Below are positions 42,621 through 64,000 of a stretch of DNA of 64,000 nt, one piece after another. This stretch comes from Congregibacter litoralis KT71 (GTDB lineage Bacteria; Pseudomonadota; Gammaproteobacteria; Pseudomonadales; Halieaceae): contig NZ_CM002299.1 of NCBI RefSeq assembly GCF_000153125.2, positions 1,244,324 through 1,308,323 of the forward strand, given 5' to 3'. Below the pieces are notes generated by a model. That model worked only from the letters and a program-made list of their open reading frames with translations, was not told the DNA's origin and ran no database searches. A program made the translations under genes and the position numbers. Position 1 is the stretch's first letter, and each line of letters starts with the position of its first letter.

Positions 42621-42997
42621 GGTAGATCAAGCTGAGTCTTTGAGCTGAGCTGAAGCACAGGAAAGACGCTTAGGCGTTTGAGTGTGAGTCAGACAGTTCT
42701 TAGATAAATTGTTCAGTGGTAACGGGTATTCAATTCCCCGTTATCACGACGAGTTGTAAAATATGTTGCAAAACATACTGTGACTTAAGCGTCACAACAT
42801 CCGGCGGATCGGAGTCGGACAGATGAGTTAACCGCTTGTTTGTCTTAAACGATCTTTACTAAACCCGGCCACGTAAGCAGTTGCTTAAGGGCGTGGACGG
42901 GAGTCTTCGCCCCCCAGGGATGGGGGGTGCATCGAGTAGCGTCTGGAACGCTACCGATGGACTAAATCGAAGTCATCGCAGATGATTTGGATTATAT

Positions 42998-51284: not shown

Positions 51285-51890
51285 TCAGCGGAGTTCGAAA
51301 ACGCAGCTGTCGCTGCCAGTGGCACAACACTGCGTTTCCACGCAGCGAAGGTTGGGATCTACGATGGACGTAAACAGTCTTTGAAATACCGCACTGTGCC
51401 AGTGGCACAAGGGTTCTGAGGATGTTTCTCCCCGGACGACGGGATTGTCGTGCAGGGTAAATACCAGGGGGTGTCGCGAGCGGACACGGAAGCGACCGGA
51501 ACCGGCAAAGGTCCAGGCGTGTTTTTCAATGATATTGGCCAGCAGCGGGGCGGAGAGCCAGGGCGGCAGGGTGCGCATCACGCGCAGCGCGGCCGTGGGA
51601 ATTCGATGCCTGATGATGTAGTCCGCTGTGCGCTCCCCAGCGCGGTTTGTCAGTTTAGGGGCCAGTCCGGGGTGATTCGATCGGAGCGCCTGATGGAGGG
51701 CCGCCGCGGGTGACTCCGCCATCATGCCCTCATCCGACGGAAGCTCCGACATTCCCGACAGGAGCATGAGTCGCTTACGCTCGTCCTCTCCCAGCATATC
51801 GTCAAGCAGCGGCACCAATTGCAACACGCTGTTGGGTCCGATGCGGGCAAGCCCGTCATTCGGGGGCGGTATTGCCACCGGTGCATTCAC
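51285..51890 (-). CDS. bchJ: BchJ-like V4R-domain protein
   Basis: 201 residues with a C-terminal V4R (4-vinyl reductase) domain: LFTSIVDPNLRC, then C187/C188 and C196, the cysteine set of BchJ-type proteins. The gene was first linked to 8-vinyl reduction of protochlorophyllide. Later work gives that reaction mainly to BciA/BciB, and BchJ may be a carrier or chaperone of intermediates. GTG start overlapping the bchE stop (TAGTG), so it is coupled to bchE and probably under the same operator. Confidence 0.85.
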   Translation of the reverse strand: MNAPVAIPPPNDGLARIGPNSVLQLVPLLDDMLGEDERKRLMLLSGMSELPSDEGMMAESPAAALHQALRSNHPGLAPKLTNRAGERTADYIIRHRIPTAALRVMRTLPPWLSAPLLANIIEKHAWTFAGSGRFRVRSRHPLVFTLHDNPVVRGETSSEPLCHWHSAVFQRLFTSIVDPNLRCVETQCCATGSDSCVFELR

Positions 51891-53581
51891 TAGGCCATTT
51901 CCTCGATTTTCTCGCTTCCTTGGGTGACGCTTTGATCAACATAGCCTTCAGCGAAAGAGTCGTTCATTTGCTGGTCTCCGCCTCCACAGGCTTTGACTGT
52001 TACGACCTGTTCCTCGCAGTCTTCCAGTGCTGCCTGTTTGCGGGCACGAGCCTGCGCAGCGCGATCCTGACTGGATTCCCAGTCTTCCAGTTGTGCCGGC
52101 GCGATCTTACGCGTCGTATCAAAGTGGAAGTCGACCTTGTCTTTGGTTTGCGGGCCCCAGTAGCCGGCCTTGCCCAGATCGTAGAAGCTCCTTTGAAAGC
52201 CTGCCTTCATAAAGGCCTTGAGGCAGCCCAGGAGATAGCGACGACGGAACCCCGTGCCGCGCCAGGGATAATGAAACAACGCCTTCTTGCTGTAAAAGCG
52301 ACGATAGTTGCGCATGACGCCATCCAGAAGCTCCCCGCGACTCATAGCGGCGGGCTTCATGATCGGGGTCACAAAGTTGTACTTCGAAAAGTCGAAGATT
52401 TCGACCTTATCGCCCAGGTCCTGGAATAGCGGCGTGAAGGGCCAGGGGGTATACATCGCCCAGTTCGCCAGATCGGGCTGCCACTCCCAGGCCATTTGAT
52501 AGGTCTCTTCCAGGGTCTCGGGTGTTTCGTTGTCCAGGCCGACGATAAACTGCGCCTCAATGAGAATATCCGCTTCCCGCAGAAGCTGAATCGCCCGCTT
52601 GTTGTCTTCGACCTTCGTTTCTTTATTGAACTGATCGAGTTTCATCTGTGCCGCCGCCTCGGTGCCCAGGCTGACATGAACCAGACCTGCACGGCGGTAG
52701 AGCGGCAAGAGCGCTTCATCCCTGAGAATGTCCGTAACGCGGGTATTGATGCCCCACTTTATGCGGTCCGGCAGCCCCCTTCGGATGAGTTCTTCGCAGA
52801 ATTCGATAAACTTCTTGCGATTGATCGTGGGTTCCTCATCCGCAAGAATGAAAAATCCGACGTCGTGTTCATTGACGAGTTTTTCAATTTCGTCGACCAC
52901 CTTGATGGGGTCACGCACACGATAATCCCGCCAGAATTTCCATTGGGAGCAAAAGGAGCAGGTAAAGGGGCAGCCCCGTGCCATATTCGGTATCGCTACG
53001 CGTGTTCCCAAAGGAATGTAGGTGTAGTGGCTCCACTCCAGCATGTTCCAGTCGGGCTCAATGGAATCCAGATCTTTGATTGTGGGTGCGGCGGGCGTTG
53101 CGACGATTTCGCTGCCGCGTCGAAAAGCTACGCCCTTGATAGATTCGCGCTGGGCTTCAAAGTCCCCGCAGGCGGCCGCGCGGACCACATCACAAAGAAT
53201 CTCTTCACCCTCACCGCGTACGATGAGGTCTATCCATGGCGCCTCGCTCAGCACCTGCTTGTACATAAACGTCGCATGAATGCCCCCGAGTACTCTGAGA
53301 GCCTGGGGTGCATGCTCTTTCGCAAGCTCCAGAATGCGTTCCGCCGCGTAAATAGAAGGCGTAATTGAGGTCACTCCGACGAGATCGGGCTGCAGCTCTG
53401 AAATGCGCGCGGCGATGGTTCCATCGTCCAGATCGTGGGTCATGGCATCGATGAAATGGATGTCGGTAAAGCCCGCCTTGCGCAAAGGGCCGGACAGGTA
53501 AGCCACCCAGGCGGGCGGCCAGCTGCCGGCGATCTCGGCGCCGCCGGACTGATAATTGGGATGCACAAACAGTATTCGCAT
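51890..53581 (-). CDS. bchE: Anaerobic Mg-protoporphyrin IX monomethyl ester cyclase
   Basis: Radical SAM enzyme forming the fifth (isocyclic) ring of bacteriochlorophyll with water as oxygen source. 563 residues from ATG 53581, whose N-terminus ([20 protein letters not shown]) is that of BchE. Order: cobalamin-binding domain (1-150), radical SAM core with [10 protein letters not shown] (about residue 205), and a BchE C-terminal domain ending in a glutamine-rich tail. A TTG six codons upstream is less likely. Oxygen-sensitive enzyme in a presumably aerobic host: an oxygen-dependent cyclase (acsF) may exist elsewhere. The upstream region holds paired CrtJ/PpsR-like sites. Confidence 0.95.
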
Positions 53582-53602
53582 GCCGCTCGACTCTGGCAAA
53601 AG

Positions 53603-53645
53603 TGTCCAATAAATGTAACACCTAAAGTGTTAACTAAATTTGACA
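53603..53645. promoter_or_regulatory. Paired TGT-N12-ACA (CrtJ/PpsR-like) operators, bchE / hydrolase
   Basis: Site 1 TGTCCAATAAATGTAACA (53603-53620) and site 2 TGTTAACTAAATTTGACA (53628-53645), separated by 7 bp. The junction forms the dyad TAACAC-N5-GTGTTA. CrtJ/PpsR is known to bind pairs of such sites in purple bacteria. Site 2 overlaps the -35 of the plus-strand promoter (TTGACA 53640, TATACG 53662), so binding would repress. Confidence 0.8.
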
Positions 53646-53667
53646 TATGTCAAGGCTTGCTTATACG
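53640..53667 (+). promoter_or_regulatory. Promoter with palindromic -35 region (hydrolase-bchID)
   Basis: TTGACA (53640-53645), 16-bp spacer, TATACG (53662-53667). The -35 lies in the perfect palindrome TTGACATATGTCAA (53640-53653), so the minus strand also gains a TTGACA. TTGAC-N4-GTCAA resembles Crp/Fnr-family boxes. Confidence 0.65.
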
Positions 53668-53698
53668 CGTAAGCTCGTGCAATTCACAGGAGTTTGCT

Positions 53699-54571
53699 AT
53701 GGAAGGCCAGTCATTGCCCGCCGCTTTTGATGCGGAGGAAGTACCTTGGGCGTTGCCAAGTTCGCCATCGGTGCTTTGCTACCATCGGCCGGGCAGTGGT
53801 CCTCCGCTCCTGCTTCTACACAGTATGAACGCAGCGGCGAGTGCGTTTGAGGTGAAGCCGTTTTTTGAGGATATGGCGCTCTCCATGCCACTGTACGCGC
53901 CGGATCTGCCGGGTTTTGGTCGCTCGGAACGCAGCGATCGGGTCTACAGCCCGGAATTTTATGCCCGCGTGATCATCGACATGGTAGAAACCATGGATCT
54001 GGGTCCCGTGGATGTGCTGGCGCTGTCCACGACATCGGAGTTCGCTGCGCGGGCGGCCCTTGAGGCGCCGGAGCTCTTTCGCAGCCTGACCCTGGTTTCA
54101 CCGACGGGTTTTATGCGCCGACGCGAGTCACGCTCGCGAGCGCCCGAGCGCGTCCATCGGGTGTTACGTCTTCCCCTTCTGGGTGCAGGTCTCTTTCGGG
54201 TTCTCAGAACAAAGCCGAGCATTCGATTTTTTTTGGACAAGGCGTTTGCCGGCGGCGCGCCAGAGGACATGGTTGATTACGCCTGGGCCTGTGCGGCGCA
54301 GCCTGGAGCCTCTTATGCGCCGTTTTACTTCTTGTCGACACAGTTTTTTGCGCCCGACGCCGTGGGGGATCTCTATGAGCCCCTGCGATTACCGGTTCAG
54401 GTCCTCTACGACAAAGATCCCAATATCAGCTTTGATTATCTGGATGACGTGGCGCGGGACCATGACAACTGGCAGCTGACCCGGATTCCCGACACGCTGG
54501 GTTTGCCGCAGTTTGAGGCGCCGGCGCAAACCCAGGCGGCATTGGAGAGTTTTCTAGGTCAGCTCTCCTGA
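53699..54571 (+). CDS. Alpha/beta-hydrolase fold protein with a degenerate active site
   Basis: 290 residues of alpha/beta-hydrolase fold, not the same as bchO farther on. Oxyanion-side sequence LLLLHSMNAAASAF and LYAPDLPGFGRSERS are conserved. The nucleophile elbow is ALSTT (Ser110) rather than GxSxG. The acid may be Asp238 or Asp240. The expected His of the GH-LPQ-EAP motif is Gly268 (TLGLPQFEAP). It is therefore probably not a hydrolase in the usual sense; a binding or chaperone role at the Mg-chelatase step is possible. ACAGGAG precedes the ATG. It lies between bchE and bchI and is likely co-transcribed with bchI. Confidence 0.8.
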   Translation: MEGQSLPAAFDAEEVPWALPSSPSVLCYHRPGSGPPLLLLHSMNAAASAFEVKPFFEDMALSMPLYAPDLPGFGRSERSDRVYSPEFYARVIIDMVETMDLGPVDVLALSTTSEFAARAALEAPELFRSLTLVSPTGFMRRRESRSRAPERVHRVLRLPLLGAGLFRVLRTKPSIRFFLDKAFAGGAPEDMVDYAWACAAQPGASYAPFYFLSTQFFAPDAVGDLYEPLRLPVQVLYDKDPNISFDYLDDVARDHDNWQLTRIPDTLGLPQFEAPAQTQAALESFLGQLS

Positions 54572-54636
54572 GGGTTTTTCCCGTCGGGCAACGGCAGCTC
54601 TCATCGGCTAATGACACCCATTTTGTAAATTGATCG

Positions 54637-54654
54637 TGTAAGCTTGGATTTACA
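54637..54654 (+). promoter_or_regulatory. Single TGT-N12-ACA site before bchI
   Basis: TGTAAGCTTGGATTTACA, 48 bp before the bchI ATG. Two degenerate matches lie upstream (TCT-N12-ACA at 54599 and TGT-N12-TAA at 54624, 7 bp apart). Weaker than the paired sites elsewhere; one perfect match is expected by chance about once in 4 kb. Confidence 0.5.
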
Positions 54655-54702
54655 CAGGCATCTTTTCGGATGTCTTCCAAGAATTAGCTGGAAGTTAGAA
54701 CT

Positions 54703-55722
54703 ATGGCGAAAGCCTTCCCGTTTACGGCCATTGTTGGTCAGGACGAAATGAAAACCGCCCTGCTTGTGGCGGCGGTGGACCCCTCCATCGGGGGCGTCCT
54801 TGTGTTTGGGGATAGAGGTACGGGCAAGTCCACGGCGATCCGGGCATTGGCCGCTTTGATGCCAAAAATCCCCATGGTTGAGGGTTGTCCCTTTAACTGC
54901 GATCCCGATAAAAAGCCCGCGGGGCTCTGTGCGCGCTGCGAATCCGGCACAGAGAAACTGAAATCCCGGGCGTCACCGATTCCCGTGGTGGATCTTCCCC
55001 TGGGCGCTACGGAAGATCGGGTGATCGGTGCCCTGGATCTTGAGCGGGCGCTGCATGATGGCGAGAAAGCCTTCGAAGCGGGGCTGCTGGCCCGGGCGCA
55101 CCGCGGATTTCTCTATATCGATGAAGTCAATCTCCTTGAGGATCATATCGTCGACTCGCTCCTGGATGTTGCTGCCAGTGGTGAAAACGTCGTCGAACGG
55201 GAAGGGCTCAGCGTGCGTCATCCCGCACGCTTTGTGCTTGTGGGCAGTGGAAACCCGGAGGAGGGGGAACTGCGGCCCCAGCTCCTGGATCGTTTCGGCA
55301 TGTCCGTGGAGGTAAAAACACCCCAGGACGTGGCGGCGCGGGTAGAAATTGTCCGGCAACGCGATGCCTTTGAGCGGGATCCCGAGGGCTTTACCAAGCA
55401 TCAGCAGCGCAAAGAGGGGCGCGTTCGCCGGCAGTTACAAAAGGCCCGGGAATCGCTGGACTCGATTGAGGTTGCGGACGAGGTGCTGGAGGCGGCAGCA
55501 ACCTTGTGCATGTCCCTTGGTACCGACGGTCTTCGCGGTGAGCTCACGCTGGTAAGAACGGCGCGGGCTCAGGCGGCGCTGGCGGGTCGTGATGTGGCTA
55601 CCCTTGACGATATGAAAGCGCTGGCACCCTCAGTGCTACGGCACCGGCTGCGACGGGATCCCCTTGATGAATCGGGGTCTACGGCGCGCATCGACAAGGC
55701 CCTGTCGGCGCTCTTCGATTGA
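54703..55722 (+). CDS. bchI: Magnesium chelatase ATPase subunit I
   Basis: AAA+ subunit of Mg-protoporphyrin chelatase, the first committed step of bacteriochlorophyll synthesis. 339 residues. Walker A GDRGTGKST (about 36-44), the BchI-specific cysteine insert (GCPFNCDPDKKPAGLCARC), Walker B FLYIDEVNLLEDH and sensor 1 VLVGSGNPEEGELRPQ are seen. It forms rings with BchD that drive insertion of Mg by BchH, which is not in this window. The stop overlaps the bchD TTG start. Confidence 0.96.
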   Translation: MAKAFPFTAIVGQDEMKTALLVAAVDPSIGGVLVFGDRGTGKSTAIRALAALMPKIPMVEGCPFNCDPDKKPAGLCARCESGTEKLKSRASPIPVVDLPLGATEDRVIGALDLERALHDGEKAFEAGLLARAHRGFLYIDEVNLLEDHIVDSLLDVAASGENVVEREGLSVRHPARFVLVGSGNPEEGELRPQLLDRFGMSVEVKTPQDVAARVEIVRQRDAFERDPEGFTKHQQRKEGRVRRQLQKARESLDSIEVADEVLEAAATLCMSLGTDGLRGELTLVRTARAQAALAGRDVATLDDMKALAPSVLRHRLRRDPLDESGSTARIDKALSALFD

Positions 55723-57566
55723 CCATCGCAGCAAGCGATGAACAGCTTGCGCGCTGGAATGATGCGGCGTGGGCTGCAGCCTGCCTGGCGGTGGGAGGTC
55801 ATAGCCTGGGGGGGGTCCGACTGAAAGGGCGCCCCGGTCCCGTACGGGACTTCTGGTTGGAACAGTGCCAGGCACTGCTGCCCGACGCCACGCCGTGGCG
55901 AAAGATACCCCTGCACTGCAGTGAGTCCCGTCTTCTGGGTGGTCTCGATTTGGCGGCGACGCTGCGTAAAGGCTCTCCCGTTGCCGGGCGCGGTCTTTTG
56001 GTGGAAAGCAGTGATGGCGTCGTCCTCCTCAGTATGGCGGAGCGGGCGCCGACCTCCGTGGTGGCGCCCCTGGCGGCGCTTCTGGATGAGCCGGTGCTAC
56101 GTCTGGAGCGTGAGGGTATTGCGGCCCAGCACGATTGTCGTCTCGCAGTTATAGCCCTCGATGAAGGTGTCGATGACGAGGCCCTGGCAGCCAACTTGAT
56201 CGAGCGTCTGGCATTGCAGATCGATCTTACGCCTTTGCCCGTCGGAGCCATCGATGAGTTTCCCTGGTCAAGGGAGGATATTCAGGGTGCCCGGGAAGCC
56301 CTTGCGGAGGTGGAGCTGGGGGATCAGGCGCTGCAGAGTATTTGTCAGGCGACCCTGGCCTTGGGTATCGATTCTCCGAGGGCGGCATTGCTGGCGGCGA
56401 GAACAGCGCGGGTGCTCACGGCTCTGGCGAGGGAGGAGAGCGTATCCGATGAGCAGCTAGAGCAGGTCGTGCGACTGGTGTTGCTACCTCTGGCAACGCG
56501 GCTCCCTGGGGGCGATGAGCAGGATGCCGAGGATGATGTCGAAGAAAGTCCGGACGACAGCGCCGACGATTCGCAGCCCCCGGACAATGAAACGCCCGAT
56601 GCACCTGACAGTCCGCCACCGTCCGATGCGCAGAGGGAGTCTGAGGACGACAAGGCGCCGGATGCCGAGCAACCTAATACTGATCCGGACCCTCTGACCG
56701 ATGATCGTCTCCTGGAGGCAGCGCAGGCAATGCTGCCGCCCGATTTGCTTGCGAAGTTACTCAGTGGGTCCATGGGCGCACGACGCAATGCGGCAAGCGG
56801 GAAGTCCGGAGCCCGGCAGCGCGCGAAGATGCGCGGACGTCCCATGGGCAGTCTCCCCGGTGATCCCCGCAGCGGAGCGCGACTGGATGTCATGGCGACC
56901 CTGCGCACCGCCGCGCCCTGGCAGCGCTTGCGGGGTCCGGCGACGGGCGGCGCTCGCTTGCGGGTGCAAGCCGAAGATTTTCGTATTGTGCGCTTTCGTC
57001 AGCGATCGCAGAGTGTCACGGTATTTGTCGTTGATGCATCGGGGTCTTCGGCGCTCTACCGTCTTGCTGAGGCGAAGGGTGCCGTCGAGCTCCTCCTCGC
57101 TGACTGCTACGTGCGGCGTGACGAAGTAGCGCTTATTGCGTTTCGAGGCGACAGCGCAGAGTTGCTGTTGCCGCCCACGCGGTCGCTGGTGCGCGCAAAG
57201 CGCAGTCTCTCGGCCTTGCCGGGCGGCGGTGGAACGCCCCTGGCGGCGGGCATTGATGCCACCGCTGAGCTGTTGGAAATGCTCGATCGCCGCGGGGCAA
57301 CGCCCGCCTATGTGATGCTGACGGACGGTCGGGGCAACGTCTGTCGCGACGGCAGCACGGGGCGGGAGCCCGCCCTTGCCGATGCTCTGTTGGCGGCGCA
57401 GAACCTGCGATTGAGTAGTGCGGCGGCAGGTATGGTGATTGATACCTCGCCACGGCCGCACCGCTCCGCGGCGGAGCTGGCGGAAAATCTGGGCGCGCTG
57501 TATCTTCCCCTGCCCAATGCCGATGCCCGGCAGTTGCAGTCCGTTGTTCGCCAGGTCGTGAGTTAG
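55719..57566 (+). CDS. bchD: Magnesium chelatase subunit D
   Basis: 615 residues. N-terminal AAA+-like module (about 1-250) without an intact Walker A, then an acidic proline-rich linker (about 260-330), then a C-terminal integrin-I/VWA domain with the MIDAS motif DASGS (VFVVDASGSSALYRL). This is the BchD architecture. TTG start inside the bchI stop; the nearest ATG is out of frame. The AAA module seems short compared with some homologs. Coupled to bchI and followed by bchO 4 bp on. Confidence 0.95.
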   Translation: MTIAASDEQLARWNDAAWAAACLAVGGHSLGGVRLKGRPGPVRDFWLEQCQALLPDATPWRKIPLHCSESRLLGGLDLAATLRKGSPVAGRGLLVESSDGVVLLSMAERAPTSVVAPLAALLDEPVLRLEREGIAAQHDCRLAVIALDEGVDDEALAANLIERLALQIDLTPLPVGAIDEFPWSREDIQGAREALAEVELGDQALQSICQATLALGIDSPRAALLAARTARVLTALAREESVSDEQLEQVVRLVLLPLATRLPGGDEQDAEDDVEESPDDSADDSQPPDNETPDAPDSPPPSDAQRESEDDKAPDAEQPNTDPDPLTDDRLLEAAQAMLPPDLLAKLLSGSMGARRNAASGKSGARQRAKMRGRPMGSLPGDPRSGARLDVMATLRTAAPWQRLRGPATGGARLRVQAEDFRIVRFRQRSQSVTVFVVDASGSSALYRLAEAKGAVELLLADCYVRRDEVALIAFRGDSAELLLPPTRSLVRAKRSLSALPGGGGTPLAAGIDATAELLEMLDRRGATPAYVMLTDGRGNVCRDGSTGREPALADALLAAQNLRLSSAAAGMVIDTSPRPHRSAAELAENLGALYLPLPNADARQLQSVVRQVVS

Positions 57567-57570
57567 GCTC

Positions 57571-58431
57571 ATGACCGACTATGAGCTTCCTGAAAATTGG
57601 CCCGATTCGGATAGCAGCGAGTTTATTGAGTCTTCGGGGTTGCGCTGGCACGTGCAGATTCGTGGCAGCGGCCCCGATTTACTCTTGCTCCATGGCACGG
57701 GGGCGTCCTCCCATTCCTGGGTGCCTATGGCGCGTCTCCTGGAGTCGGACTTCCGTGTCATCGCCCCGGATCTCCCCGGGCAGGGCTTTACGGAGCTGGC
57801 GCCCGCAGCGCAGTGTTCCCTGACGGGCATGTCCCGTGCCATCGCTCATCTTCTTCAGACCCTGGATGCAAAGCCCGTGGTGATCGCGGGCCATTCTGCC
57901 GGCGCTGCCATCGCCGCATGCCTGTGCTTGCGAGGTTCCTTGAATCCCCGGTCCGTGGTCAGTATTAACGGTGCCATGTTGCCCTTCGGTCGTGCGGCTG
58001 CGCCGGTGTTCAGTAAGGCGGCGCAGCTGCTTGCAGCCTCTCCTGTGTTCACTCAGCTGGTGGCGCTTCACGCCGTGCCGCGAAAACCCGTGGAGCGGAT
58101 GTTGCGTCAGACCGGTTCCCGCACGCCGCCCGAGATGGTGCGCTGCTATCGGGATCTGCTGGGTAAACCCCGCCATGTCGCGGCCACACTACGCATGATG
58201 GCGAACTGGAATCTGGAGCAGTTGGAGGCCAATCTGGATCGGCTGAATCCCGCCTTATCGCTTCTGGTCTGTGACAGGGATTCGGTGGTGCTGCCGGCTC
58301 AGGGTGAGGAGTTGGCGCGTCGTCTCCCCGGCTCAGAGCTTCATCGCATTGCCGATTTGGGGCATCTGGGTCACGAAGAGAGTCCCGAGTGGTTCGCTGA
58401 ACAGGTTCGTAGGGCGGCTGCCCGGAGCTGA
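57571..58431 (+). CDS. bchO: Magnesium-chelatase accessory alpha/beta hydrolase BchO
   Basis: 286 residues, alpha/beta-hydrolase fold with complete catalytic triad: Ser109 in GHSAG, an Asp in LLVCDRDSVV, and His265 in DLGHLGHEESP. Oxyanion loop LLLLHGTGASSHSW. The bchI-bchD-bchO order is standard in purple bacteria; the substrate of BchO is not known, though it is often named a Mg-chelatase accessory protein. The second hydrolase-like gene at 53699 lacks the His, which makes the pair interesting. About 50 bp separate its stop from the operators before crtI. Confidence 0.9.
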   Translation: MTDYELPENWPDSDSSEFIESSGLRWHVQIRGSGPDLLLLHGTGASSHSWVPMARLLESDFRVIAPDLPGQGFTELAPAAQCSLTGMSRAIAHLLQTLDAKPVVIAGHSAGAAIAACLCLRGSLNPRSVVSINGAMLPFGRAAAPVFSKAAQLLAASPVFTQLVALHAVPRKPVERMLRQTGSRTPPEMVRCYRDLLGKPRHVAATLRMMANWNLEQLEANLDRLNPALSLLVCDRDSVVLPAQGEELARRLPGSELHRIADLGHLGHEESPEWFAEQVRRAAARS

Positions 58432-58484
58432 GGTTCAAGAAAGCCTTTGGTGGATCTGTGCAAGGCCTGTACTTGCTGCTATGC

Positions 58485-58527
58485 TGTAAAGCAAGTTTGA
58501 CACTAAAAGTGTAATTTATAGTGAACA
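58485..58527 (+). promoter_or_regulatory. Paired TGT-N12-ACA (CrtJ/PpsR-like) operators at crtI
   Basis: Site A TGTAAAGCAAGTTTGACA (58485-58502) and site B TGTAATTTATAGTGAACA (58510-58527), 7 bp apart, the same spacing as before bchE. Site A ends in a TTGACA that could be a -35, with TATAGT (58517-58522) only 14 bp on. Site B covers the GTG start at 58521. Confidence 0.78.
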
Positions 58528-60047
58528 GTATCGTGACCCCGGGTTCTGAGCTGCAATCGGGTGCTGCTCCCCACGCCATCGTCATTGGCAGTGGTTTTGG
58601 CGGACTTGCTGCCGCAATTCGTCTTTCCGTGCGCGGTTACCGCGTTACCGTGCTCGAAAAGCTTGATGCTCCCGGTGGGCGGGCCTACGTTTTCCGGCAG
58701 GACGGATTTACCTTTGACGCGGGTCCCACGATTATCACGGCGCCGTTTTTGCTTGAGGAGTTGTGGACGCTCTGTGGCAGAAGCTTCAGTGACGATGTCG
58801 AGCTTCGCGCCATGAAGCCCTTTTTCCGCCTCCGTTTTGATGATGGCGATACCTTCGATTACACCGGTGATCCCGAGCAGATGCGGGCGGAGATACGCCG
58901 CATAGCGCCCGAGGATCTGGATGGCTACGAGCAATTCTTAAAGGTTAGTGCCACGGCTTATCGCCTTGGCTATGAGCAGATGGGCGACATGCCCTTCACC
59001 AAGATCACCGATATGCTCAAGGTGATTCCCGAGATGCTGAAAATGCAGGGTCTACGGAGTCTCCATTCCCTGGTGCGCGCTCATGTAAAGAACCCCAAGC
59101 TGCAAACCGTGCTGAGTTTCCATCCCTTGCTCATCGGCGGGAATCCCTATTCGGTCACCGCCGTCTATGCATTGATTTCCTACCTGGAGCAGCAGCATGG
59201 CGTCCATTCAGCCATGGGCGGGACCGGAGCGCTGGTCGATGCCATGGTGTCTCTGATGCAATCCCAGGGTGCGGTGTTGCGCTGTAATGCCGAGGTGGAA
59301 GAAATCCTCGTGGAAGGGGGGGAGGCGAAGGGTGTTCGCCTGGCGTCGGGAGAAGTGCTTTCCGCCAATGTGGTGGTGTCCAATGCCGATGCGGCATGGA
59401 CCTACCGCCATCTTGTGAAGCCCGAGCACCGCAGGCACTGGACCGATCGCAAAATTGAGCGCTCGAGTTTTTCTTCAGGGCTGTTCGTCTGGTACTTCGG
59501 TACGGACAAGCGCTATGAGGACGTTCCTCAGCATTCGGTGCTCCTTGGTCCGCGGTACAAGGGGCTTTTGGATGATATCTTCAAGCACCACCACCTCGCC
59601 GATGATTTCAGTCTTTACCTCCATCGTCCTACGGAGCTGGATCCAAGCCTTGCCCCCGAGGGCTGTGACACCTTTTACGTTCTGGCGCCTGTGCCTCACC
59701 TGGAGAGCGGTACGGACTGGGAGGCGCAGGCGGAGCCTTTCCGTCTTGCTATCCAGAAGCGGCTTGAGGAAACGGTGCTTCCCGGATTCTCTGAGCATGT
59801 GAAAACCTCCCGGGTGATGACGCCTCTGGATTTTCAAAGCCGGCTTCTTGCCTTTCGCGGATGTGCTTTCAGCTTCGAGCCAAAGCTCATGCAAAGCGCC
59901 TGGTTCCGCCCCCACAATGTCAGTGAGGACGTGAAAGGTCTCTTCCTGGTGGGCGCAGGTACGCATCCCGGCGCAGGCATCCCCGGCGTGATAACGTCAG
60001 CCAAGGTGCTGGATCAGGTGGTTCCCCATGCGCACAGCTATGCCTGA
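58521..60047 (+). CDS. crtI: Phytoene desaturase
   Basis: Carotenoid desaturase of 508 residues. N-terminal FAD-binding Rossmann motif VIGSGFGGLAAAIRL (about 20-34) and ERK-like LEKLDAPGGRA follow at once. The C-terminal signature VGAGTHPGAGIPGVI is typical of CrtI-type enzymes. It converts phytoene to neurosporene or lycopene; the number of steps cannot be told. The start is uncertain: GTG 58521 or GTG 58533, neither with a ribosome site, and 58521 lies in the operator. The end overlaps crtB by 20 bases. Confidence 0.93.
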   Translation: MNSIVTPGSELQSGAAPHAIVIGSGFGGLAAAIRLSVRGYRVTVLEKLDAPGGRAYVFRQDGFTFDAGPTIITAPFLLEELWTLCGRSFSDDVELRAMKPFFRLRFDDGDTFDYTGDPEQMRAEIRRIAPEDLDGYEQFLKVSATAYRLGYEQMGDMPFTKITDMLKVIPEMLKMQGLRSLHSLVRAHVKNPKLQTVLSFHPLLIGGNPYSVTAVYALISYLEQQHGVHSAMGGTGALVDAMVSLMQSQGAVLRCNAEVEEILVEGGEAKGVRLASGEVLSANVVVSNADAAWTYRHLVKPEHRRHWTDRKIERSSFSSGLFVWYFGTDKRYEDVPQHSVLLGPRYKGLLDDIFKHHHLADDFSLYLHRPTELDPSLAPEGCDTFYVLAPVPHLESGTDWEAQAEPFRLAIQKRLEETVLPGFSEHVKTSRVMTPLDFQSRLLAFRGCAFSFEPKLMQSAWFRPHNVSEDVKGLFLVGAGTHPGAGIPGVITSAKVLDQVVPHAHSYA

Positions 60048-61155
60048 GGCTGCTGCTGAGGTGCAGGGCATTTTGCTGCGTTCACGGGTAGCGATACCGC
60101 CGGATGCGCGCTCCGATACCGCGCATTGCCGGGGCATGATCCGCACGGGATCCAAGTCATTTTTTCTGGCTTCCCATTTACTGCCCTCGGGCTTGCGGGG
60201 TGCGGTCTTTGCTCTCTATGCATTCTGTCGGGAAGCTGATGATGCCATTGATGATGGGGATGACCCCATGGCGGAGCTGGCGATATTCCGGGAGCGCCTG
60301 AGCGCGGTTTATGGCGAGGGTGTCCCGGATAACACGGTTGATCGTGCGCTTGCCCGGGTAGTGCATGACTATGCGCTGCCCCGGGAGCTCCTTGAGGCGC
60401 TGCTTCAGGGCTTTGCCTGGGATGTGCAGTCCCGGGCTTACAAGGATTTGGGTAGTGTTTACGGCTACGGTGTGCGCGTGGCGGGCTCCGTGGGCGTCAT
60501 GATGGCCTTGCTTATGGGTGTCAGGGATCCGGGTATGCTGGCCCGCGCGGCGGATCTCGGTGTTGCTATGCAACTGACCAATATCGCCCGGGATGTCGGT
60601 GAAGATGCCCGGGCGGGGCGGGTGTACCTGCCCAAGCGCTGGCTTCGGGAGGTGGGTCTGACTCCCCAGGCGCTCATAGAAAATCCAAGGTTCTCGCCGG
60701 AGCTGGCTTCGGTGGTGGCTCGCCTCCTGAGCGCCGCGGAGTGTTTGTATGCCAGGGCGGACAGCGGTATTGCCGGGCTTCCCGCCCGCTGCAGGCCGGG
60801 TATCTATGCTGCGAGAAAACTCTATGCGGGCATTGGTCACGAGCTCCTGCGCCGCGGTGGGGACAGCGTGTCTCAACGCACGGTATTGTCCTCCCATCGC
60901 AAGTTCCTGTTGGCCGCCGCGTCTCTTTTGCCGCCGAGAGTCAATCTCGCGCACCTTCACGCGGATCCGCTCCCTCAGGTGCGCTATCTCATTCGCGCGG
61001 TGGACGAACTGCCGACACCGGAGGTCGCTGAGGGGCCTCGGGATGGCTTCGCCGGTGATGTGGATTGGGTTCTCAATGTGTTTGCCGAGTTGGAAAAGCG
61101 TGATCGCGAAGTCCACAGCTCGGGGTCCAGCCTCAGGTCCGGCGCGGCATCCTGA
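60028..61155 (+). CDS. crtB: Phytoene synthase
   Basis: Joins two geranylgeranyl diphosphates to phytoene. 375 residues. Squalene/phytoene synthase motifs: RTGSKSFFLASHLLP, YAFCREADDAIDD (first Asp-rich), and LTNIARDVGEDARAGRVYLP (second Asp-rich). ATG 60028 has AGGTGG upstream and lies in the end of crtI; ATG 60040 is the alternative. The C-terminal region is longer than in short homologs. Its last 23 bases overlap the end of the convergent crtC. Confidence 0.94.
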   Translation: MRTAMPEAAAEVQGILLRSRVAIPPDARSDTAHCRGMIRTGSKSFFLASHLLPSGLRGAVFALYAFCREADDAIDDGDDPMAELAIFRERLSAVYGEGVPDNTVDRALARVVHDYALPRELLEALLQGFAWDVQSRAYKDLGSVYGYGVRVAGSVGVMMALLMGVRDPGMLARAADLGVAMQLTNIARDVGEDARAGRVYLPKRWLREVGLTPQALIENPRFSPELASVVARLLSAAECLYARADSGIAGLPARCRPGIYAARKLYAGIGHELLRRGGDSVSQRTVLSSHRKFLLAAASLLPPRVNLAHLHADPLPQVRYLIRAVDELPTPEVAEGPRDGFAGDVDWVLNVFAELEKRDREVHSSGSSLRSGAAS

Positions 61156-62155
61156 AGGGCAGCAGAGTCTGTACCCAGCGCTGCTCAAATCGCTCCATGG
61201 ACAGGCTTTCATGGATGCCCGTCCCCGTTTCGCCGCCAAATTCTGTCTTAATGAGTGAGCGCGCATAAAACGGCGTGTCTTCCAGAGTCTGTAATCGCGT
61301 TGGCCTCGCTTCTGCGCCGGGCATGCGTCGATGGACGCGCCATATGCCCGTGCGCGGTAGCGCCGCCGCGTCCCGGGTCTCCTCGCTGGCGATAGAACCG
61401 TCCTTCTTAAAACGCAACGCCAGCCGATGCGGCTTTCGGGCGCCGTGTCGAGCTTCGTAGCGCACAGCACAGTCACCATTGCTCAGTCTCGCACGGGTCC
61501 AGTCCCAGCCCGAGAATCCATCCGCCAAAGGTTCTGTTCCCCGGTTGCTGTCGAGGTAGCCGTCCCCGGACCAGGCGGTGCCCAGGGAGGGGAGATCGAC
61601 ATCAACCCGGGCAATGGGAGCGATGGGGTTCCAGTGGTGCCGGGCGTCCTCATCCAGCTGCAGGCTGTGTGCGGTGAGCGTGGAGGGGGTGATTCGGATC
61701 GTTCCCTGCATGCGCTGTGCAAACGGTGTGCACCGCTCGTTTACCCGGGCCAGAAAGCTCTCTCCGTCCCAATCGATTCGGCTCGGGCCCAGGGCGTAAC
61801 TGTCGGCACGGCGTTTGAGGCGGGCGGAGCCTCGCTCGGTCATGCTCCAGCGTTTTTTGCCGCCGGGTCCATAGAGAATAGTATTGAAGGCGCAGTGGTT
61901 TTCCGCTGCGGTCACGGCCTTGCGGCGCGCGCGGGCATAGTAGGGAGAGAACACGCTCCCTACAAAAATAATCATGGTGATGGCCTGTCTGCCGTCATCG
62001 CTGATGGCGTCGACATACCACCAGAGATAGCCGTTGTCGGCCACAGCTTCGGCAAAATTGATCCCGGGCTCGCGGGTGCTGTAGCCAGACGGTAAGGCCT
62101 CGCTTTGCGAGACGGTGGGCTCTGTGTCTGAACTCCGGGGCGGTAAACCTTCCAT
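61133..62155 (-). CDS. crtC: Carotenoid 1,2-hydratase
   Basis: Hydroxyneurosporene synthase family, 340 residues, adding water across the terminal double bond of neurosporene or lycopene. Seen: NGYLWWYVDAISDDGRQAITMIIFVGSVFSPYY, GPSRIDWDGESF, and GFSGWDWTRARL with TGIWRVHRRMP. Points to the spheroidene/spirilloxanthin pathway. Divergent from crtE across a 103-bp region with paired operators. Convergent overlap with crtB. Confidence 0.92.
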   Translation of the reverse strand: MEGLPPRSSDTEPTVSQSEALPSGYSTREPGINFAEAVADNGYLWWYVDAISDDGRQAITMIIFVGSVFSPYYARARRKAVTAAENHCAFNTILYGPGGKKRWSMTERGSARLKRRADSYALGPSRIDWDGESFLARVNERCTPFAQRMQGTIRITPSTLTAHSLQLDEDARHHWNPIAPIARVDVDLPSLGTAWSGDGYLDSNRGTEPLADGFSGWDWTRARLSNGDCAVRYEARHGARKPHRLALRFKKDGSIASEETRDAAALPRTGIWRVHRRMPGAEARPTRLQTLEDTPFYARSLIKTEFGGETGTGIHESLSMERFEQRWVQTLLPFRMPRRT

Positions 62156-62199
62156 TGCGGCGGGTGTTCCTTCTTGTTTTGCTACTTGTATTCTTGATT

Positions 62200-62243
62200 C
62201 GTCTAATCTACCTTACACCATTAAGTGTAAACTAATATTAACA
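62200..62243. promoter_or_regulatory. Paired CrtJ/PpsR-like operators between crtC and crtE
   Basis: Site A is CGT-N12-ACA (62200-62217, one mismatch); site B is TGTAAACTAATATTAACA (62226-62243). The spacing is 8 bp and the junction again forms a dyad (TTACAC-N6-GTGTAA). Both lie within the crtE promoter. Confidence 0.75.
62213..62241 (+). promoter_or_regulatory. crtE promoter
   Basis: TTACAC (62213-62218), 17-bp spacer, TATTAA (62236-62241). Site B covers the -10 and site A ends in the -35, so repressor binding would block it. Start codon 18 bp downstream of the -10. Confidence 0.6.
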
Positions 62244-62258: not shown

Positions 62259-63131
62259 ATGCCGATAGGTGACAGTGATTTCGAGCAAGTTTTGCGGTCG
62301 GCGGTTGAAGAGGCGGCCGATGCGCGCTGTCCCAAGTTGTTGGCGGCTGCTCTCCATCATTCGGTGTTTCCCGGCGGTGCCCGGGTGCGGCCCAAGCTCT
62401 GCCTGGCCGTGGCGCTTGCCAATCATTGCGATGCGCCGGCCCTCGCTGCCGCCGCGGCGGCGTCCGTCGAGCTGCTCCACTGCGCATCCCTGGTTCACGA
62501 TGATATGCCCTGTTTTGATAATGCTGATGAGCGACGAGGCCGGCAGTCAGTGCACACCGCCTACGGTGAGCCCATAGCGCTATTGGCCGGGGATGCCCTG
62601 ATTGTGTCGGCCTTCGCGCTCCTTGCAAGACCGCAATTGCCGGCGAAAAACCGCCTGTCGCAATTGATGCGGGTCGTCGCCGAGGGCGTTGGCGCGCCCT
62701 GCGGTATTGCGGCGGGTCAGGCCTGGGAGTCGGAGCCCGTTGTCGATGTGTCTCTTTATCACCGGGCAAAAACCGGTGCTCTGTTTATTGCGGCAACGGC
62801 CGCGGGTGCCGCGGCTGCGGGCGTAGATGTTGCGCCCTGGAAACTGCTGGGCGCGAAGATCGGTGAGGCCTATCAGGTCGCAGACGATATTCAGGATGCC
62901 ACCTCGACACCCGAGCAACTCGGCAAACCCTGCGGCGTTGATGTGGCCCTCAATCGTCCCAGCGCCGTCTCAGAGCTGGGTCTTGAGGGTGCGACACACC
63001 GCTTGCGCGAGCTTGTGGAAGAGGGTGTGGCAGCGGTTCCTCCCTGCGCGGGTCGCGCAGAGCTCCAGGAAGTGGTTCGTCAGCAGGCGCAGCGCTTCTT
63101 GCCAAAAGTCTGTGCGCCGGTCGCTGCCTGA
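62259..63131 (+). CDS. crtE: Geranylgeranyl diphosphate synthase
   Basis: Polyprenyl synthase of 290 residues supplying GGPP for carotenoids and the bacteriochlorophyll tail. First Asp-rich motif HDDMPCFDNADERRG (about 85-99), second motif VADDIQDATS (about 207-216), and FPGGARVRPKL near the start. ATG 62259 is preceded by GGGG; an in-frame start at 62115 lies in crtC's promoter side and is rejected. Its IPP/DMAPP supply includes IspH encoded at 13502. crtF follows 56 bp later. Confidence 0.93.
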   Translation: MPIGDSDFEQVLRSAVEEAADARCPKLLAAALHHSVFPGGARVRPKLCLAVALANHCDAPALAAAAAASVELLHCASLVHDDMPCFDNADERRGRQSVHTAYGEPIALLAGDALIVSAFALLARPQLPAKNRLSQLMRVVAEGVGAPCGIAAGQAWESEPVVDVSLYHRAKTGALFIAATAAGAAAAGVDVAPWKLLGAKIGEAYQVADDIQDATSTPEQLGKPCGVDVALNRPSAVSELGLEGATHRLRELVEEGVAAVPPCAGRAELQEVVRQQAQRFLPKVCAPVAA

Positions 63132-63187: not shown

Positions 63188-64000
63188 ATGCTCCTGAAAA
63201 ACTGGCTGCTCACGCGGCGGGATCGCCTGCTGGGTAGTCCTGTCTTCCATCAGTCCGTGCTTCGCTTTCCCCTGTTTCGCTGGATTGCCCGTCGGCGAGC
63301 CCGGGAGCTCTTTGATATTACCGCGGGCTTTGTTTACTCCCAGGTGCTGGCCGCCTGCGTAGAGCTGGATCTGTTTGAGCGTCTCGCGGAAGGTCCGCGC
63401 ACCTCAGCACAGCTTGCCGCTGCCTGCGATCTACCCGTGGATGGCCTGGAGCGCCTTCTGCGGGCTGCGGCGGAGCTGCGACTTCTGCAGCGCTGGGGTG
63501 CCGACAGTTGGCGCCTCGGTGACCTGGGCGCAGCCAGTCGCGGCAGCCCCGGTATAGCCGCCATGGTCCGTCATCACCACCTGCTTTATTCAGATCTCGC
63601 CGAGCCTTTGTCGCTTTTGCGGGATCGCTCTCAAAGCGCTTTGAGTCAGTACTGGGCCTACGCATCACGGCCTGGTCTTAGTGAGGCTGAGAATGCGCAG
63701 CGCTACAGCGAGCTGATGGCGCAGTCACAGTCTTTTGTTGCCGACGATGTCCTGGCGCACTGCTCCCTGGAGGGGCGGCGGGAGCTTCTTGATGTGGGAG
63801 GTGGCAGCGGTGTGTTTGCTGCCGAGGCCCTGCGGCGGTTTGCAGGTCTTCGGGCCCGGGTGTTTGACCTCCCGGATGTTGCTGTCCTGGCGGATGAGCG
63901 CTTTGCTCAGGAGGGCCTGGAGGAGCGGGGGAGTGCCCTCGGAGGCGACATGTTCCTTGATGCCCTCCCTCGCGGCGCCGATGTCATCAGCCTCATTCGG
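63188..64000 (+). CDS. crtF: Demethylspheroidene O-methyltransferase, cut by window end
   Basis: 271 codons to the edge with no stop. The N-terminal winged-helix/dimerisation part (ELFDITAGFVYSQVLAACVELDLFERL) and the SAM motif LLDVGGGSGVFAAEAL (about 199-214) are those of CrtF-type SAM-dependent methyltransferases. It methylates the hydroxyl groups introduced by CrtC. ATG 63188 is the likely start; GTG upstream belongs to another frame. The absence of a stop is why it has no closed frame in the window. Confidence 0.9.
   Translation, partial: MLLKNWLLTRRDRLLGSPVFHQSVLRFPLFRWIARRRARELFDITAGFVYSQVLAACVELDLFERLAEGPRTSAQLAAACDLPVDGLERLLRAAAELRLLQRWGADSWRLGDLGAASRGSPGIAAMVRHHHLLYSDLAEPLSLLRDRSQSALSQYWAYASRPGLSEAENAQRYSELMAQSQSFVADDVLAHCSLEGRRELLDVGGGSGVFAAEALRRFAGLRARVFDLPDVAVLADERFAQEGLEERGSALGGDMFLDALPRGADVISLIR

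Follow-up and report, generated by a model that had tools for sequence, protein, structure and literature searches.

The window analysed here is a 64,000-nt stretch of the Congregibacter litoralis KT71 genome (contig NZ_CM002299.1, positions 1,244,324 to 1,308,323 of the forward strand), and it holds part of the photosynthesis cluster with bch and crt genes (Table 1). Three gaps between these genes each contain two TGT-N12-ACA palindromes in tandem, almost certainly sites for the repressor PpsR/CrtJ. Specifically, exact pairs with a 7-bp spacer (N7) occupy 53603-53620 and 53628-53645 in the gap between bchE and the hydrolase-bchIDO run, and 58485-58502 and 58510-58527 in the gap between bchO and crtI. 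The pair at 62200-62217 and 62226-62243, in the crtC/crtE gap, has an 8-bp spacer (N8) and a single mismatch, its first site beginning with CGT. In the same-genus genome G012, this pair (L131:332) has a spacer of 7 instead of 8, with the CGT and the gap kept in both.

A sequence-only reading of the window had described the three pairs with their spacings and the CGT, and all were found as described. It had assigned them to divergent or operon-head gaps; the 62200 pair does lie between divergent genes, but the 58485 pair lies between the co-directional bchO and crtI. The sites behind its list of targets (bchE/J, hydrolase-bchID, crtIB and crtE/crtF) are borne out. The list lacked crtC, which we add because the 62200 pair is located between the divergent crtC and crtE. 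The pattern extends past the window to bchC, bchF/ppsR, ppsR/bchG and acsF/BLUF.

Table 1. Genes, putative operators and inferred promoter features in the window (window coordinates).
Feature	Coordinates	Strand	Basis or remark
bchJ	51285..51890	-	TIGR02019 above cut-off
bchE	51890..53599	-	TIGR02026 above cut-off; start probably ATG at 53581, by inspection
Putative PpsR-type operator pair, bchE / hydrolase-bchIDO	53603..53645		sequence; pair in G012 (same genus) also has spacer 7
alpha/beta hydrolase, heads hydrolase-bchIDO run	53699..54571	+	no family above cut-off
single TGT-N12-ACA, hydrolase / bchI gap	54637..54654	+	weak, lone site
bchI	54703..55722	+	TIGR02030 above cut-off
bchD	55719..57566	+	NF009943 above cut-off
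bchO	57571..58431	+	TIGR03056 above cut-off
putative extended -10 of crtI, TGCTATGCT (TGnTAnnnT)	58477..58485	+	inferred promoter; abuts operator
Putative PpsR-type operator pair before crtI	58485..58527	+	right site holds crtI start codon
crtI	58521..60047	+	TIGR02734 above cut-off
crtI start codon GTG in right operator site	58521..58523	+	ATG/GTG-AAC in 8/12 Halieaceae gaps
crtB	60028..61155	+	best family NF045921, below its cut-off
crtC	61133..62155	-	NF045922 the only family, below its cut-off
Putative PpsR-type operator pair, crtC / crtE	62200..62243		N8, first site CGT
crtE	62259..63131	+	polyprenyl synthase families below cut-off; named by position and similarity
crtF, runs off window	63188..64000	+	name from sequence-only reading and position

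Lone TGT-N12-ACA sites mean little, and counting them is uninformative: the whole genome has 571, compared with 564 matches to the reversed pattern, and the window has 16 where 9.0 are expected, with a count of 16 reached in 3 of 100 shuffles. Exact pairs with spacers of 4-14 bp number three in 4,351,117 bp (reversed control, 1), and the number of exact N7/N8 pairs expected if sites fell independently is about 0.15. All three have a spacer of 7 or 8 and are confined to the photosynthesis cluster, rather than being equally frequent elsewhere: two are the window pairs at 53603 and 58485, and the third (C1:1308647) lies before bchC, just beyond the window end. When one mismatch is allowed, 12 N8 pairs (reversed control, 1) and 4 N7 pairs (reversed control, 3) are found genome-wide. 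Those added inside the cluster are the 62200 pair and pairs at 1332975 (bchF/ppsR) and 1334643 (ppsR/bchG). Ten one-mismatch N7/N8 pairs lie outside the cluster; nine are within mechanically called open reading frames (ORFs) of 109-999 aa, although the 109-aa frame is a poor argument for coding sequence. The remaining pair, at 574106, is in front of pucBAC. Elsewhere in the window, a one-mismatch pair at 42755-42796 has a spacer of 6; its right site, TGTGACTTAAGCGTCACA, is a near-perfect palindrome, which we take to be more like a CRP/FNR-type site than a PpsR site.

The sequence-only reading had suggested looking for a ppsR/crtJ gene next to the cluster, and the gene is present within it; counted from the 62200 pair it lies ~27 kb downstream, flanked by two one-mismatch pairs. 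It encodes a full-length PpsR (C1:1333207-1334535), which matches TIGR02040 with 441.4 bits over profile positions 1-442 of 442, above the cut-off of 275.4. The reading frame of 462 aa has PAS domains at 147-191 and 267-379, an HTH_8 domain at 416-453 and only two cysteines, 358 and 420, which are 62 residues apart. It resembles in sequence the solved R. sphaeroides-type PpsR chains, e.g. 4hh2 (E 3.3e-25). A BLUF gene adjoins acsF in the photosynthesis cluster, and a second BLUF gene is located elsewhere in the genome.

Across 140 genomes of the family, the presence of pairs tracks ppsR. With ppsR scored as a match above the curated TIGR02040 cut-off, exact N7/N8 pairs were found in 52 of the 59 genomes having ppsR vs 15 of the 81 without it; the pairs number 95 vs 3 for the reversed pattern, used as control, in the former, and 22 vs 13 in the latter. 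Among the 15 pair-bearing genomes without ppsR, at least five are drafts of genus g21 (G077, G082, G087, G062 and G101), and G077, G082 and G087 carry ppsR fragments; in the remaining ones the number of pairs about equals that of controls. G013 and G014, of the same genus as KT71 and both drafts ~90% complete, have neither ppsR above the cut-off nor exact pairs, and a loss of phototrophy is likely in both.

The same gaps were compared in relatives, counting loci outside the KT71 genome, each distinct upstream sequence once, and pairs with a spacer of 7 or 8 and at most one mismatch unless stated otherwise. The Halieaceae were grouped by label or family relationship, including L134, L136, L141, L144 and L147, and also L098, which is labelled Gammaproteobacteria only. 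The pairs are conserved in other Halieaceae, at bchC (13/13), crtE (13/13), bchF (5/8), crtI (8/12), acsF (2/7) and bchG (2/8), and the reversed control gives 0 for each gene. Other phototrophs have them at bchC (14/27), crtE (15/26), crtI (3/17) and bchG (2/7), and at neither bchF (0/6) nor acsF (0/27). The pairs stand at the heads of genes: the operon-internal crtB and bchX have none, both in Halieaceae (0/14 each) and in a wider locus count (0/82 and 0/39). A spacer-7 pair is present in all 12 Halieaceae crtI gaps at up to two mismatches; the gaps missed at one mismatch are L112, L058, L078 and L098, and the crtI gaps of L061 and G038 are identical. The crtF/bchC gap of G059 (L142:18433-18501) holds three tandem TGT-N12-ACA sites with spacers of 7 and 8.

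Placement of the pairs was compared with putative promoter elements of sigma-70 type, taken as consensus matches in conserved positions, with registers counted per gap or row. At bchC, TTGACA ends site 1 and TAnnnT follows 16-17 bp on, inside site 2, in 13/13 Halieaceae and 22/27 others, always with a spacer of 8. The misses are L077, L083, L107, L110 and L115, four of the five being Polynucleobacter. Nine further rows that do not fit each represent an additional, overlapping pair, and the locus in question has a fitting pair as well. At bchG, TTGACA-N17-TATATT is present in KT71, G037 and G038 (3/4 rows). At bchF, TTGACA is at the end of site 2 with TAnnnT 17 bp on (5/5 genomes examined), and at acsF the -10 of TTGAGN-N17-TATNCT enters site 1 (3/3 examined). 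At crtI, an extended -10 (TGnTAnnnT) stands against site 1 and the start codon is in site 2, in 8/12 Halieaceae gaps and in KT71; the counts for the bchC geometry and for the crtI start codon were taken from an earlier grouping, in which the sizes of the bchC and crtI groups were the same. With the TTGACA of the left crtI site taken as -35, a TAnnnT at N16-18 inside the pair was found in 0/14 crtI rows. At crtE, an embedded -35/-10 is present in 10/32 rows, with no single register. A uniform embedded-promoter model was rejected on the counts for crtE, crtI and bchF/ppsR (2/6).

A spacer of 8 appears to go with a -35 within the pair, namely at bchC and bchG (-35 in site 1, -10 in site 2) and at bchF and puc (site 2 ending in the -35). 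A spacer of 7 appears to go with a -10 that precedes or enters the pair, namely at acsF and at crtI, where the operator would cover the transcription start and the start codon. It is possible, rather than probable, that PpsR operators are not interchangeable, each promoter keeping its own conserved register, with the register tied to the spacer and the spacer fixed by promoter geometry, hence a gene-specific redox response. If so, one repressor could set different thresholds for pigment and carotenoid genes, and the conserved registers would explain concretely why spacer length varies among promoters.

Two further loci are candidate targets. The acsF/BLUF gap of KT71 has a two-mismatch pair with a spacer of 7 (1339720 and 1339745), and when up to two mismatches are allowed, this gap holds a pair in 6/7 Halieaceae and 0/27 others. 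The pucBAC genes, identified by Pfam matches for both LHC peptides and PUCC, lie 0.72 Mb from the cluster, and the one-mismatch N8 pair before them (574106) is followed by TTGACA-N17-TAnnnT. A two-mismatch N8 pair followed by the same elements occupies the same place before puc in G036-G039, so that the comparison covers four relatives in one genus (g12); the loci of G012, G137 and G138 are too short upstream of pucB. Repression of puc by PpsR is a natural idea because KT71, according to passages of PMC2654016, has pucA and pucB and yet no LH2 was seen in culture. As a side claim of the register proposal, the silent LH2 genes of the clade may be PpsR targets. By the puc pair lies a 242-aa ORF on the minus strand (L129:8440-9168; C1:574440-575168 in KT71), which repeats SDTPLSSxLxLPL-like segments and has no match in Pfam. 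In G011 (contig 19, L136:10322-10365), an exact N8 pair precedes a further PUCC-like gene outside the main cluster, which may be one more remote target of PpsR.

Sequence, position and spacer of the pairs, their specificity in the genome, their co-occurrence with ppsR and their conservation lead us to regard them with high confidence as PpsR/CrtJ operators, the regulator being encoded in the same cluster. An oligomer of PpsR would occupy the two side-by-side palindromes and, once bound, would block transcription of the target genes; cellular redox state and blue light are the trigger proposed for the clade. The regulon would comprise bchE/hydrolase-bchIDO, crtI(B), crtC/crtE(F), bchC, bchF/ppsR and bchG, probably acsF/BLUF, and pucBAC. 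Here we infer binding, repression, the sensed signal and the promoter elements from the DNA and protein sequences. The idea that the same repressor logic operates as in purple alphaproteobacteria, put forward by the sequence-only reading, gains support from ppsR, specificity and conservation, but is probably too simple, the operators seeming to be placed differently by promoter.

Several observations weigh against the PpsR assignment. Seven of the 59 genomes with ppsR have no exact pair, and 15 of the 81 without it have one. Several of the pairs in KT71 deviate from the motif at one or two positions, and once two mismatches are allowed, the reversed pattern is found in Halieaceae as well (crtE 3/13, crtI 2/12, bchC 1/13). 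The crtI gap outside Halieaceae is mostly without a pair, as given above.

Three alternatives were considered and rejected. The first is that the motif merely reflects promoter conservation, the TTGACA -35 supplying the ACA half with no repressor involved; we consider it very improbable. The TTGACA of bchC site 1 does sit at the -35 position, and part of the conservation is therefore shared with promoter function. However, outside the cluster the genome has no exact pairs, although -35 boxes occur at other promoters as well, and pair presence follows ppsR. Moreover, the pair is not needed as a promoter at crtI and acsF, since the likely -10 there either precedes it or falls on its left edge. 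Slightly less probable still is a different dyad-binding regulator that reads the inner dyad ACA-N7/8-TGT instead of the TGT-N12-ACA sites. It would fit the ACAC-N5-GTGT-like junctions of the window pairs, but in relatives the inner sequence is free to vary (GATTCAG, GCAGTTGC, TTTGGGA) with the TGT/ACA ends kept, and spacer 7 vs 8 alters the inner dyad while the outer palindromes remain N12. The third, a six-base motif turning up repeatedly by chance in AT-rich gaps, accords with the single-site counts and with the near-control number of one-mismatch N7 pairs, but is practically excluded by the three exact pairs, all in the cluster, and refuted by conservation in relatives, where the control count stays at 0 when up to one mismatch is allowed.

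The preferred assignment, pairs as PpsR operators, is at its core ordinary and already known, because paired PpsR sites were published for C. litoralis in 2009: passages of Spring et al. (PMC2654016) report 15 putative PpsR sites, 12 of them tandem and 7 or 8 nt apart, and a later paper (PMC3666943) restates the proposal. As far as these passages go, their six tandem pairs compare with six in the cluster here at up to one mismatch, also with spacers of 7 or 8, and the two accounts agree on a PpsR in the photosynthesis cluster, two BLUF genes with one near ppsR, and pucA/pucB elsewhere. The PpsR cysteines are numbered 349 and 412 there, unlike 358 and 420 here, and the 15 sites may include the acsF/BLUF pair. 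In a limited literature search, neither the puc pair nor the overlap with the crtI start codon nor the classes of register came up in the passages of the two papers. New here would be the weaker acsF/BLUF pair, the distant pucBAC (LH2) pair and the conserved promoter-specific operator placement.

The classical purple-bacterial repressor circuit is, in sequence at least, present in abundant marine gammaproteobacteria (OM60/NOR5 clade), backed by a genome-wide control and with pucBAC and acsF/BLUF named as extra candidate targets. Like Rhodobacter CrtJ/PpsR, the KT71 system has a PAS-PAS-HTH_8 protein, TGT-N12-ACA palindromes and a putative promoter overlap at bchC; unlike it, the PpsR here has only the two cysteines.

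Comparable sites are known from Rubrivivax gelatinosus, in which, according to passages of PMC4452267, paired TGT-N12-ACA-like sites at the crtI and puc promoters were footprinted; those at pucB overlap both the -35 and the -10, an arrangement also reported for Rhodobacter capsulatus bchC. Paired sites occur at crtI and puc in both organisms, footprinted there and known from sequence here, with spacers of 8 (crtI) and 9 (pucB) in Rubrivivax vs 7 (crtI) and 8 (puc) in KT71. In the same passages, spacer length alters redox-dependent binding of Rubrivivax PpsR (9 bp but not 8 bp), which gives the idea of promoter-specific registers a possible mechanism.

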